Of a stretch of 35,659 nucleotides of DNA, positions 1-31,559 are shown piece by piece (positions within the stretch are counted from its first letter, which is position 1; each line of letters starts with the position of its first letter). The stretch is from positions 1 to 35,659 of the forward strand of contig CALQHT020000028.1 in NCBI GenBank assembly GCA_943330455.2, read 5' to 3'. Below the pieces are notes generated by a model. It did no database searches, was not told the origin of the DNA, and saw nothing but the letters and a program-made list of their open reading frames with translations. The position numbers were made by a program, and so were the translations under genes. Source of the stretch: Nitrosovibrio sp. Nv4. GTDB lineage: Bacteria; Pseudomonadota; Alphaproteobacteria; Acetobacterales; Acetobacteraceae.

Positions 1-84
1 GAGGGGGTTGGGGGGAGGGGTAAATCCACACCGATATTGCGCGAAACCCCTCCCCCCGCCCCCTCCCGCAAGGGGAGGGGGAGA
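1..84. repeat. Family A palindromic repeat, copy 1 (cut by window edge)
   Basis: The first 20 bases are the inner end of a G-rich left arm and bases 47-84 are the matching C-rich then G-rich right arm, ending in a CCGCAAGGGGAGGGGGAG-type sequence. The outer part of the left arm lies before base 1. The right arm matches the short-arm form seen at 4494-4538. The remaining bases to 142 hold no gene; they carry CCAGGATGTGTGA at 139-151, which recurs just after the copy at 4422-4538, so the repeated unit may extend past the palindrome. Confidence 0.8.
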
Positions 85-142
85 AGTTTCTCCAACCACC
101 CTGCCCCGCACCTGATTTTCTCCGGCCCTATCCCATACCAGG

Positions 143-3655: not shown

Positions 3656-3785
3656 AACAACGGCCCGAATCATGGATCGACGATGCACTGCCCACCGCCC
3701 CCATCTCCCACCGTCATTGCCGGATCAAGCCCGGCAATAACGGTGAGGGGTGGGGCGGTGCACCGGTGCATGGTTCGGGCTGTTG
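3656..3785. repeat. Family B palindromic repeat, copy 1
   Basis: An imperfect palindrome of about 130 bp. The left half starts AACAACGGCCCGAATCATG and the right half reads back as AACAGCCCGAACCATG. The centre pairs CACCGTCATTGCCGG (3709-3723) with CCCGGCAATAACGGTG (3730-3745) around ATCAAG. It fills most of the gap between the TonB gene and the adenosyltransferase gene, so it could fold in the transcript and act as a terminator or mRNA end. Related copies are at 7512-7640, 34549-34629 and 35491-35545. Confidence 0.8.
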
Positions 3786-4359: not shown

Positions 4360-4421
4360 GGCACAGATTGGGCCGTACTGCCGCCACGCTCCCATCCGCG
4401 TTCGCACATCTCGGCACCGGG

Positions 4422-4538
4422 AGAAAATTCCCCCCCTCCCCTTGCGGGAGGGGGTTGGGGGGAGGGGAAATCCCGCAATATCCGTGGGGATAACCCCTCC
4501 CCCCGCCCCCTCCCGCAAGGGGAGGGGGAGAATTTTCT
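4422..4538. repeat. Family A palindromic repeat, copy 2 (short arms)
   Basis: Left arm 4422-4467 and right arm 4494-4538 pair over about 45 bases with only a few mismatches, around a 26-base loop. Both arms are of the short type: a CCCCCTCCCCTTGCGGG segment followed by a G-rich run. The element fills the gap between the convergent adenosyltransferase and epimerase genes, where it could end transcription from either side. The rest of the gap contains no gene. Confidence 0.88.
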
Positions 4539-4591
4539 TCAGCCTCGCCCGGTTCCAGGATGTGTGAACGCGGTTGCCCACGCCCCCAGCC

Positions 4592-7249: not shown

Positions 7250-7866
7250 CGGGTGAGCCCCATGGTGATGCCGTCCACTCTGTCGCGGGCCTGTTTCATA
7301 TCCGATGCCGCCTCAGAATTCATTAACGTCGGTCGTTTTTGCGCGCGGGGCAACCATTCACGTCGTGACGATGCAGACGATATCCCATGCTGTCGATGGC
7401 GCAACGGACAATGCGCGCGGTTTCGGCCGTCCGGTTCCGCGTCGCCCGGCACGACGGTCGACCACGAGCGGTTGCGTGGGGCGCGGCCTTAAGGCGACGC
7501 CGACGCTTCTAACCATGGATCGACAGGCCGGCCGCATGGGTATTGCCGAGCTGGACCCGGTAACCCACCCGCTGCCGGTGAAGCGCGGGTTGCTGGGCCA
7601 AGCCCGGCAATGCCGGTGAGGCGTTTACTCGATCGCTCAACTTTGGTTCGCAGCCGCCTGGCAGTTGATCCGCCGTCGGAGATCGCTCAGAAAGGGCGCG
7701 AACCACGGCGGATCGCACGCATGAGCACCGACCTTCTTCACGAAGGCTACCGGGTCGGCCAGGCAGCCGGCACCGACTCGAATTTCGTCCCGGACGGCCG
7801 CGGCTCGGCCGAACCGAAACATCGGGGAATCGGACTGGTCCGCCGCTCGCCCGGGTGTGCCGTCTG
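7250..7866. other. Intergenic region without a convincing gene
   Basis: About 600 bases separate the divergent kinase and ribF genes. Both strands have short open frames, but none resembles a known family or has a good ribosome site. Bases 7512-7640 hold a degenerate family B palindrome. Promoters for both flanking genes must lie here, but no box is strong enough to name. Confidence 0.5.
7512..7640. repeat. Family B palindromic repeat, copy 2 (degenerate)
   Basis: The unit begins AACCATGGATCGAC, nearly identical to the start of the copies at 3656-3785 and 35491-35545. The right part, CAAGCCCGGCAATGCCGGTGA, is the reverse complement of the family core. The two halves pair poorly over the outer region, so this copy is worn or rearranged. 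Confidence 0.6.
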
Positions 7867-24712: not shown

Positions 24713-25498
24713 TCAACCAACGGCCTCGTGTTCACGCGCCCACGTCTCCACCAACGCCCCCGCCACTGCTTCCACGTCCACCGCGGCCGCACACGAGGGG
24801 TGCCGGGTCAGCAGCAATGTCTGCCGACGGATCGCGTCCCGCACGCGGTCGTCCCGCCGCACAATCCCCGCCAGCGCCGGTTCCGCGCGCAGGAATGTCC
24901 CGCACGCTCGGCGTAACGTCGCGAAGGTGCGTTCCCCGGCACCTCGATTGCTTGCCTGGTTGACCAAGACCCGGGCATCGCCGCCCACCCGGTCGGTCGC
25001 GTATAACTTCAGCACGGCGTAAGCGTCGGTCAGGCTGGTTGGCTCCTCGGTCGCCAGCACGATCAACGTGTCGGCGAACGCCGCCATCCGGCGCACCCCG
25101 CGTTCCACCCCCGCCCCCAGATCCAGCAGGACCACGTCGTACATGTCCGCCTCCGTCCGCAATCGCGGCAGGGTGCGGTCCAGATGTGCGGGGTCCAGCG
25201 CCGACAGCGCGCCCGAGCCGGACTGGCCGGCCAGCACGTCGAACCCGGCTTCCTCGTGCCGGGTCACCGCCTCGGCCAAGCTGACCCGCCCGGACACCAC
25301 CGAGCCCAGGTCGTATCGCGGCATCATCCCCAACTGGACATCGACATTGGCCAGCCCGAGATCGCCGTCGAACAGCAACACCCGCAGCCCCAGACGGGTC
25401 AGCGCATGCGCCAAGGTGATGGCGAACCAGGTCTTGCCCACCCCGCCCTTGCCGGAGGCGATTGCGATCAGGCGGGGCTTAGGCGGCATGGCGTTCAT
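24713..25498 (-). CDS. flhG: FlhG-like MinD/ParA-type ATPase for flagellar number control
   Basis: A 261-residue ATPase of the MinD/FlhG (FleN/YlxH) family, which works with FlhF to set flagellar number and place. The deviant Walker A SGKGGVGKT is at about residues 15-23, the Walker B-like switch LFDGDLGLANVDVQLG is at 42-57, and VVLLDLGAGV is near 125. Family order and length are normal. It overlaps the upstream flhF stop by 20 bases from the ATG at 25498 (11 bases if the second ATG at 25489 is used). It is the last gene of the flagellar operon in this window and is convergent with the toxin-antitoxin pair. Confidence 0.92.
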   Translation of the reverse strand: MNAMPPKPRLIAIASGKGGVGKTWFAITLAHALTRLGLRVLLFDGDLGLANVDVQLGMMPRYDLGSVVSGRVSLAEAVTRHEEAGFDVLAGQSGSGALSALDPAHLDRTLPRLRTEADMYDVVLLDLGAGVERGVRRMAAFADTLIVLATEEPTSLTDAYAVLKLYATDRVGGDARVLVNQASNRGAGERTFATLRRACGTFLRAEPALAGIVRRDDRVRDAIRRQTLLLTRHPSCAAAVDVEAVAGALVETWAREHEAVG

Positions 25499-26774
25499 GG
25501 CGGGGTTTTCCGGTCTGCATCATTCGGGCGGCAAGGGAGGCAGGGGTCAGGCGTTCCAGCCCATCCGCCGCGCCGGGACCGATCCCAGCCTCGGTCAGCG
25601 GCAGACGAGCGGCGGCGGCGGCGGCCAGCAAACCGCCCAGACGGCGGGTGAGGTCCAGGCGGGTCACGATCAGGCGGCTGGCCCCGGCGGCCGCGAAGGC
25701 AACCGCGAGATCGGCGGCCTCGGCTGGATCGAGGCCGGCGGGTAGCACCAGCGCGATGATTCCATCCACGGATGCCGTTAGCGCCCGCAATTCGTCGGTT
25801 TGGGCGGGGTCGAACGGGTCGATCCCGGCCGCGTCGATCAGGACTGGTGCTCCGTCTTCTCGGCGCGCGAGTGCTCGACCCAGGGTCACCGGATGGTTGG
25901 CGACGACCAGGGTTACGCCGAGCAGTCGGGTGAAGGCGGCCAGTTGCTCGGTTGCGCCGGCGCGTTTGCCGTCGGCGGTCATCACCATCGGGGTGATCCC
26001 GGCCATTACAAGGCGGGTTGCCAGGCGTGCGGTGGTCAGCGTTTTGCCGGCGCCGGGTGGGCCGGTCAGCAGCAGCGGGCGTCCGCCTCGTTCCAATGGC
26101 AGGTCCGCGAAGGCCAGGGTGCGGCCGAGCGCGGTGTCGAGGGGGCCGGCGTCCAGGGAGGCGTGTAGGGATGGTGGGACGCCGTGGTAGTGCAGCATCG
26201 AACGGCGCACTGGGTCCGGTGGGGGTGTAGAGGCGGCATGCACACTTTTTGGCGCAGATTCTGGGCGGCGCAAGCTCTCCCCCTCCCCTTGTGGGCTTGG
26301 GCCGTGAAGCGGACCAAGGCTGGGGGGAGGGGTTTGAGGCAACGTTTGTGCGCGAAACCCCTCCCCCCAACCCCCTCCCACAAGGGGAGGGGGAGAGCTT
26401 GCACCATTGCCGCGCTGTGTGAATTCAGAACGGGAAACCGACGCGGGCGATGCCGGTTCCACCTGGTTTTGCCGCACCGCCGCACCCGGCGACCATGCCG
26501 GCAGCCCCGACCGTGCATACCCGGCCAACCCGCTCGACTCCCGCGACGCCGGCGCCCCACCACCCCCCGGCGTCCAAGCCGCGACCGGCGCCGCCCGCTC
26601 GACCGGAGGCAGCAGCGGCGGCGGCGCATCGTCCGAAGGCTCCAGCGCCGCGGTCAGCTCAACCCCGTCACCGACCCGGCGGGACCCAAGGATCAGCGCG
26701 TCGACCCCGAGTTCGGCGCGGACCTGGGCCATCGCCTCGGCGGTCGTGGCAGCACGGAACAGCTTCAGGCGCAT
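25479..26774 (-). CDS. flhF: FlhF, signal-recognition-type GTPase, with an in-frame palindromic repeat
   Basis: A protein of about 431 residues that directs flagellar assembly to the cell pole. The N-terminal B domain starts MRLKLFRAATTAEAM, and the NG GTPase domain covers about residues 225-431. G1 is LTGPPGAGKT. The G3-like motif is DAAG rather than the usual DTAG, and the guanine-specificity motif is TRLD rather than TKLD, so nucleotide handling may be slightly altered. Between the B and NG domains lies a long Pro/Gly-rich linker. About 44 residues of it are encoded by the palindrome at 26270-26402, which keeps the frame open. The ATG at 26774 is preferred because FlhF proteins usually begin MRLKLF; a GTG at 26792 is also possible. 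It follows flhA by 85 bases. Confidence 0.92.
   Translation of the reverse strand: MRLKLFRAATTAEAMAQVRAELGVDALILGSRRVGDGVELTAALEPSDDAPPPLLPPVERAAPVAAWTPGGGGAPASRESSGLAGYARSGLPAWSPGAAVRQNQVEPASPASVSRSEFTQRGNGASSPPPLVGGGWGEGFRAQTLPQTPPPSLGPLHGPSPQGEGESLRRPESAPKSVHAASTPPPDPVRRSMLHYHGVPPSLHASLDAGPLDTALGRTLAFADLPLERGGRPLLLTGPPGAGKTLTTARLATRLVMAGITPMVMTADGKRAGATEQLAAFTRLLGVTLVVANHPVTLGRALARREDGAPVLIDAAGIDPFDPAQTDELRALTASVDGIIALVLPAGLDPAEAADLAVAFAAAGASRLIVTRLDLTRRLGGLLAAAAAARLPLTEAGIGPGAADGLERLTPASLAARMMQTGKPRHERHAA
26270..26402. repeat. Family A palindromic repeat, copy 3, inside flhF
   Basis: The outer arms, 26270-26295 and 26377-26402, are exact 26-bp inverse copies. Further in, the left arm has the long form (with a CTTGGGCC-type insert) and the right arm the short form, so this is a chimera of the two arm types. 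The whole element lies within the flhF coding strand without causing a stop and encodes roughly FlhF residues 125-169 (counted from 26774), a segment rich in Pro, Gly and Ser. Confidence 0.9.
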
Positions 26775-26859
26775 GCGAACACCCAGGGGCACGAAGCGAC
26801 GCCAAACGGCGGATGCCGGCCACGCGGGTGTCCCATCAGTCGATCACGGGAACTGCCCA

Positions 26860-31392: not shown

Positions 31393-31559
31393 CGGCCGGC
31401 GGCCATACTCCCCCTCCCCTTGCGGGCTTGGGCCGCGAAGCGGACCAAGGTTGGGGGGAGGGGGTGCCCCCACGGACCTTGCCTCACACCCCTCCCCCCA
31501 ACCTTGGTCCGCTTCGCGGCCCAAGCCCGCAAGGGGAGGGGGAGTATGGTCGCCGGCCG
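31393..31559. repeat. Family A palindromic repeat, copy 4: 71-bp near-perfect inverted repeat
   Basis: Left arm 31393-31463 and right arm 31489-31559 are inverse copies over all 71 positions except 31402/31550, which would form a G.T wobble. The loop is 25 bases. Both arms are of the long type and contain an inner hairpin (CTTGG...CCAAG). It lies between fliG, which stops at 31587, and fliH, which starts at 31354, in an apparently single transcript, so the mRNA would fold into a very stable hairpin that may limit or process expression downstream. Confidence 0.96.

Follow-up and report, generated by a model that had tools for sequence, protein, structure and literature searches.

An apparently mobile palindrome within the open reading frame of flhF in a member of the Acetobacteraceae

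Rickettsia palindromic elements (RPEs), of about 105-146 bp, have been described in frame within unrelated proteins, and the product of an RPE-containing gmk was reported to be translated and active. In the extracts of these accounts used here, RPE target-site duplication is marked '?' in a table (PMC2229807) and the RPEs of R. conorii are said to end in CGTC. As far as the extracted sections go, in-frame palindromes occur in Wolbachia in addA, addB and priA, those in addB lying at nucleotides 778-1023 (codons about 260-341) and 2452-2655 (PMC4224334). Intragenic GTAG/CGTC REPs are given in frame, many of them in genes for the synthesis and repair of DNA (uvrA, dnaE2, recB), with different REPs at about the same recB site in two Xanthomonas (extract of PMC3733652). 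Translated palindromes beyond Rickettsia are thus listed, in the same partial sources, for Wolbachia, Xanthomonas, Thauera and enterobacteria; the sequence-only reading of this DNA, which had named Rickettsia, was correct but too narrow. ERIC/RU-1, Correia and QMITE1 are summarised in extracts as small and non-autonomous; terminal repeats and target-site duplications are ascribed to some of them, and in-frame fusion to some. Because in-frame palindromes are reported in Rickettsia, in Wolbachia and as intragenic REPs, the phenomenon itself is already known. No description of translated palindromes in Acetobacteraceae was found in our literature search, which is not proof of absence.

The element described here was found in flhF within the window, the whole stretch of 35,659 nucleotides that was analysed. 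It resembles RPEs as a palindrome in frame within protein genes, here FlhF, AddB and ImuB, but differs in host group and in its clear ~9-bp duplications, and it is set apart from RPEs by description, not by sequence. As in Wolbachia addB, AddB is entered by in-frame palindromes, here near residue 288 (counted from the likely start); the element is a different one, and the shared position, taken from the coordinates in a partial source, is no more than a lead. GTAG REPs are 20-40 bp units tied to RAYTs, whereas the copies here are mostly 165-205 bp, have ~9-bp duplications and are accompanied by no Y1_Tnp match. Short length, multiple copies, terminal inverted repeats and target-site duplications are all present in the family, as in MITEs; no parent transposase was found for it in the draft genome, and the likeness to other bacterial MITEs is one of description, not of sequence. 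This is a new element family of an already described phenomenon. New are its duplications, its presence in FlhF and ImuB and the recurrent insertion into the AddB linker, and one more family of the Alphaproteobacteria now has palindromes within coding sequence. The most informative parts are the family duplications, the recurrent insertion at a single AddB linker and the history probably shared with the sister genome G017.

The palindrome and its host gene

The host gene flhF, which encodes a protein for placing flagella and was identified from its ORF, a Pfam SRP54-type GTPase match and its relatives, lies at 25479..26774 on the minus strand. Two starts are possible within the ORF, ATG at 26774 (MRLKLF, shared with relatives) and GTG at 26792; the N-terminus RLKLFRAA... 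is conserved in relatives in the same frame as the element, so the ATG is the likely start. The GTPase domain (PF00448, Pfam) covers FlhF residues 240-425, downstream of the element.

Exact outer arms of 26 bp (26270..26295, plus strand; 26377..26402, minus strand) are reverse complements of each other and, as had been claimed, lie wholly within flhF inside one ORF. The further claim that the frame stays open held as well, since the minus-strand ORF (25479-26792) runs all through the element. Extended to 26267-26295 and 26377-26405, the outer arms span 29 nt and are 97% complementary. The inner arms, at 26318..26335 (plus strand, 18 nt) and 26355..26372 (minus strand), are 94% complementary, and an extra small palindrome of the long-half form, recognised from sequence and core classes, occupies 26296..26319 on the plus strand. 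The flhF copy is a short/long hybrid with a 115 bp core (26279-26393), in which one half has the long form and the other the short form. With end motifs on both sides, at spacers of 23 and 5 bp, the full MITE-like element measures 201 bp (26231..26431), and its tips at 26235..26252 (plus strand) and 26410..26427 (minus strand) each match the consensus tip at 14/18 positions. As 201 bp is a multiple of 3, about 67 codons were added to flhF; the earlier figure of about 44 residues took in the 133-bp core only. The coding-strand RNA had a predicted fold of -125 kcal/mol, compared with -77 +/- 4.7 for 200 dinucleotide shuffles, of which none was as good. The outer arms differ from the family consensus at 4/12 positions on each side, and despite this drift the palindrome is near perfect and open in frame. 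The in-frame presence of a mobile palindromic element in flhF is real.

For the flhF pair of the present genome (G000) and G017, dN/dS was calculated by the method of Nei-Gojobori and was 0.16, 0.57 and 0.055 for the N part (52 codons), the linker before the GTPase (61 codons) and the GTPase part (259 codons), respectively. The gene is under purifying selection in this pair and the element sits in a poorly conserved linker, which bears out the suggestion that an insertion at this position would be tolerable. AlphaFold, run on a two-sequence alignment, gave a poor model (mean pLDDT 41), so the label 'disordered linker' is poorly founded.

A multicopy family with target-site duplications

The genome is a 6.48-Mb draft of 470 contigs. 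The arm pattern CCCCCTCCCCTTGYGGG, with up to 2 mismatches, gave 210+188 matches genome-wide, compared with 6+6 for the mirror control. A profile made from 40 copies and searched over 80 genome stretches, the window and the loci from the first genome search gave 114 distinct matches. In the 40 copies, cores were mostly 97-99, 115-117 or 133-138 bp long, with three of 90-96 bp, the class being set by the short or long form of each half. Outside the core lie GGAGAAAATTCT and then the end motif CTAC(G/C)GCATTCACACATC; the family end motif is CTACGGCATTCACACATC, and a GC-rich nested palindrome lies between the ends. At the tolerance set, the end motif was recognised on both sides of 23 of the 97 copies with enough flank, on a single side of 29 and on neither side of 45. 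Two-ended copies ranged from 99 to 271 bp, 20/23 of them falling within 165-205 bp, and the copies are short, multicopy and without a transposase gene. A full copy has 2.5/6 frames open, compared with 1.6/6 in shuffles (n=23); part of this surplus may come from self-complementarity, which shuffling destroys.

The window holds a full copy whose ends are bordered by an 8/9 direct repeat (4393..4576), a copy with two long halves (31393..31559) and a partial copy at the contig end (1..97). The outer arms of the copy at 31393..31559 are off consensus yet nearly match each other (11/12). The repeat family that the sequence-only reading had placed between genes is real genome-wide, and these three window copies are probably intergenic as judged by the ORF list. 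Several contigs begin or end in the element (e.g., window 1-97, C72:7-23 and C93:3-19); the assembly may therefore be interrupted at copies, and their number is an approximation. Among 59 genomes, arm matches numbered 398 in G000, 251 in G024 and 199 in G027, and amplification is patchy among congeners. The arm was amplified in G024, G027, G019, G032, G014, G017 and G031, and also in G034, while many others were near the control. Rfam returned 24 weak matches to the element, none reaching the gathering score, and one copy (L062) had no match among plasmids at E 1e-5.

The family leaves ~9-bp target-site duplications. Direct repeats of 8/9 or better just outside the ends were found in 12/23 two-ended copies versus 3/506 mismatched left-right pairings, and perfect 9-mers in 5/23 versus 0/506, with small offsets allowed alike in data and control. 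The flhF copy ranked last of these 23, with a best end repeat of 4/9, and shows no recognisable duplication of its own; the 23 scored do not include the copies in AddB and ImuB. Four screened copies could be aligned by their flanks to G017, namely those in flhF and ImuB, L102 and L104 (diverged). At L102, G017 is without about 218 bp that include the element. With the end motifs and duplications defined, the movement of translated palindromes becomes testable.

A parent element was sought as a pair of end motifs 600-3500 bp apart, and none was found in the window, L062-L141 or L202-L221, by eye in the genome-wide end-motif list of the 470-contig draft, or among the matches listed from eight relatives. 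No transposase with matching ends was found in the draft either. On contig C63 (L101), two arms are separated by about 2.9 kb, a stretch examined at the level of ORFs.

The two outer arms within a copy deviate together from the consensus. In 80 two-armed copies of the genome, which include window 26279-26393 and 31410-31542, 42 of the 149 left-arm deviations were mirrored on the right arm, compared with 13.2 +/- 3.7 expected (maximum 32) when right arms were shuffled among copies in 2000 rounds. Subfamilies could account for part of this co-deviation, and it also suggests, as alternatives, hairpin-templated correction or a constraint on pairing.

History of the flhF insert and competing explanations

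FlhF was searched in 59 genomes including the present one, of which 27 matched at E<=1e-10. Frames were compared for 17 of the others: G017, 14 more of the same genus and two members of the family, G034 and G033. The nine matches outside this comparison are more distant. The inserted segment was absent from FlhF of all relatives compared besides G017 (16/16). The comparison proposed earlier thus gave absence at the same point in 16 relatives, while G017 appears to be a probable partial loss, not an empty site. In the FlhF of G017 the core is gone and tip-like sequences are kept in the same order and orientation, matching the consensus tip at 14/18 and 13/18. Matches of at least 13/18 occurred at 6/47,530 background positions, a background that includes true copies. 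Probably, the insertion is older and shared, predating the split from G017, which then would have lost the core, about 144 bp, in frame; we infer this order, gain and then loss in G017.

The explanation that we favour, with a probability of roughly 0.85, is that a non-autonomous MITE-like element spread in an Acetobacteraceae lineage and survived in frame in the flhF linker, with translation, transposition in trans and a near-neutral effect as its inferred parts. Such an element would leave ~9-bp target-site duplications as it spreads, moved by a putative, unseen transposase acting in trans. Landing in a dispensable linker at a frame-keeping length, its stop-poor arms would be read through, and the gene would survive with a presumably translated insert rich in Pro, Gly, Ser and Glu. 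The effect of the insert, a longer flexible linker, would be near-neutral. The earlier proposal that the repeat can enter a gene and survive as protein agrees with the transposition marks of the family and with the purifying selection; survival as protein is predicted from the frame. In these bacteria, linkers of proteins seem to grow through selfish DNA, and the cases here may represent stages of one process, from insertion through survival under purifying selection and apparent in-frame shrinkage to repeated use of the AddB linker, a route by which such DNA lengthens linkers.

Selection for a changed function is an improbable account of the insert. Under co-option, it would alter the function of FlhF (or of AddB or ImuB) and be held for that reason, as persistence of the palindrome and frame with outer arms off consensus at 4/12 on each side, together with repeated entry into the AddB linker, might suggest; however, G017 is without the core and purifying selection on the gene pair persists, the preceding linker has a dN/dS of 0.57 and arm matching is seen family-wide. 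We regard it as very improbable that the family is of the REP type, moved by a RAYT (a Y1 tyrosine transposase), rather than a MITE. The copies are palindromic, are mostly outside genes and have ends with CTAC/GTAG, and intragenic GTAG REPs are on record, but PF01797 (Y1_Tnp) had 0 matches in this genome, where a missing gene is possible in 470 contigs, compared with 5/14 control genomes that matched. The ~9-bp duplications and the length of 165-205 bp in 20/23 copies also misfit REPs of 20-40 bp.

Doubts about the gene itself weigh less still. The absence of an FlhF match in 17/32 other genomes of the genus means that flhF can be lost in this genus, and the copy in G000 might then be a decaying pseudogene; this is hard to reconcile with an open frame, a recognisable GTPase domain, a dN/dS of 0.055 with G017 and an adjoining flhA that has a near full-length FHIPEP match (Pfam), and we give it very little credence. 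Scarcely credible is a wrong gene model, in which translation begins downstream and the element is outside the protein. An in-frame ATG at codon 26196-26198 (M199), between the element and the GTPase domain, would allow it, but relatives share the first ~50 residues, read in that same frame, and dN/dS there is 0.16 (52 codons).

Copies in ImuB and AddB

A search of the genome for other genes encoding the segment, as had been proposed, found those of two DNA-repair proteins, AddB and ImuB. In an in-frame screen by codon-usage score, applied to 96 copies flanked on either side by 150 bp or more, 3/96 were full in-frame copies in genes with homologues, namely FlhF, AddB (L017) and ImuB (L119), so most copies are outside genes. 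The element is read in more than one frame, as LPLPLREG... in AddB and ImuB and as SPPPLVGG... in FlhF. The L119 frame has IMS domains (Pfam), beyond which we presume the name ImuB; the L017 frame, with no Pfam match, is one that we take to be AddB. Three further candidates were rejected: at L112 and L090, higher-scoring ORFs on the opposite strand make the element intergenic or place it close to where a gene begins, and L106 has a 43-bp fragment only, the frame around it being 551 aa long with no Pfam match.

The flanks of the ImuB insert had dN/dS values of 0.16 and 0.23. No such insert was present in 26/29 aligned loci of the genus (one, G016, has a truncated frame), and at this place G017 shows a short stretch that lacks the element. 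The ImuB of G032 carries a palindromic insert of its own, with 17-nt exact arms (L143). The ImuB of G014 (L160) has a shorter form that reads like the G032 insert minus its middle and looks like a collapsed in-frame remnant.

AddB was aligned over 28 loci (G034 plus 27 from the genus); 25/28 were without a comparable segment, although G004 carries a small additional stretch rich in Ala/Gly, and the G017 fragment stops short of the linker region. In G014 (L173) and G032 (L174), a different in-frame palindrome lies a few residues from the same point, with exact arms of 16 bp in G014 and 26 bp (CCGTCATGGCCGGGCTTGACCCGGCC) in G032. A family-wide search matched AddB in 125/150 genomes, and 90 of the 125 were examined as 30 loci and 60 fetched stretches. 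With 29 from the genus search, 119 loci were surveyed, including the present genome, G010 twice, the G017 fragment short of the linker and some truncated stretches; 33 of the 125 matching genomes fall outside this survey. The linker had a median of 19 residues, and seven were of at least 48. In 6/7 of these long linkers the DNA holds an inverted repeat that exceeds all 100 simple shuffles, by a modest margin in G134 (14 vs 11); in G127 it does not (7 vs 11). Palindromic inserts at the same linker were found in G070, G113 and G134, of other genera. Palindromic linkers make up 6/119 loci surveyed, a proportion biased upward because 30 loci were ranked by match to an insert-containing query. Counting G014 and G032 once, the linker was apparently entered five times independently, a number obtained from lineage and sequence.

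A bolder reading, which we consider unlikely, is that palindromes enter preferentially at addB and other repair genes and are the main route by which the AddB linker grows. In its favour are about five entries into this linker by at least two palindrome families, in a region also reported for Wolbachia addB, and the palindromes in 6/7 of the long linkers. If true, this linker would grow by selfish palindromes via targeting or via selection on repair enzymes. A second small repeat, TTGCCGGATCAAGCCCGGCAAT, and a variant of it occur in the window at 3717-3751 and 7590-7624, and by eye resemble the AddB palindrome of G032.
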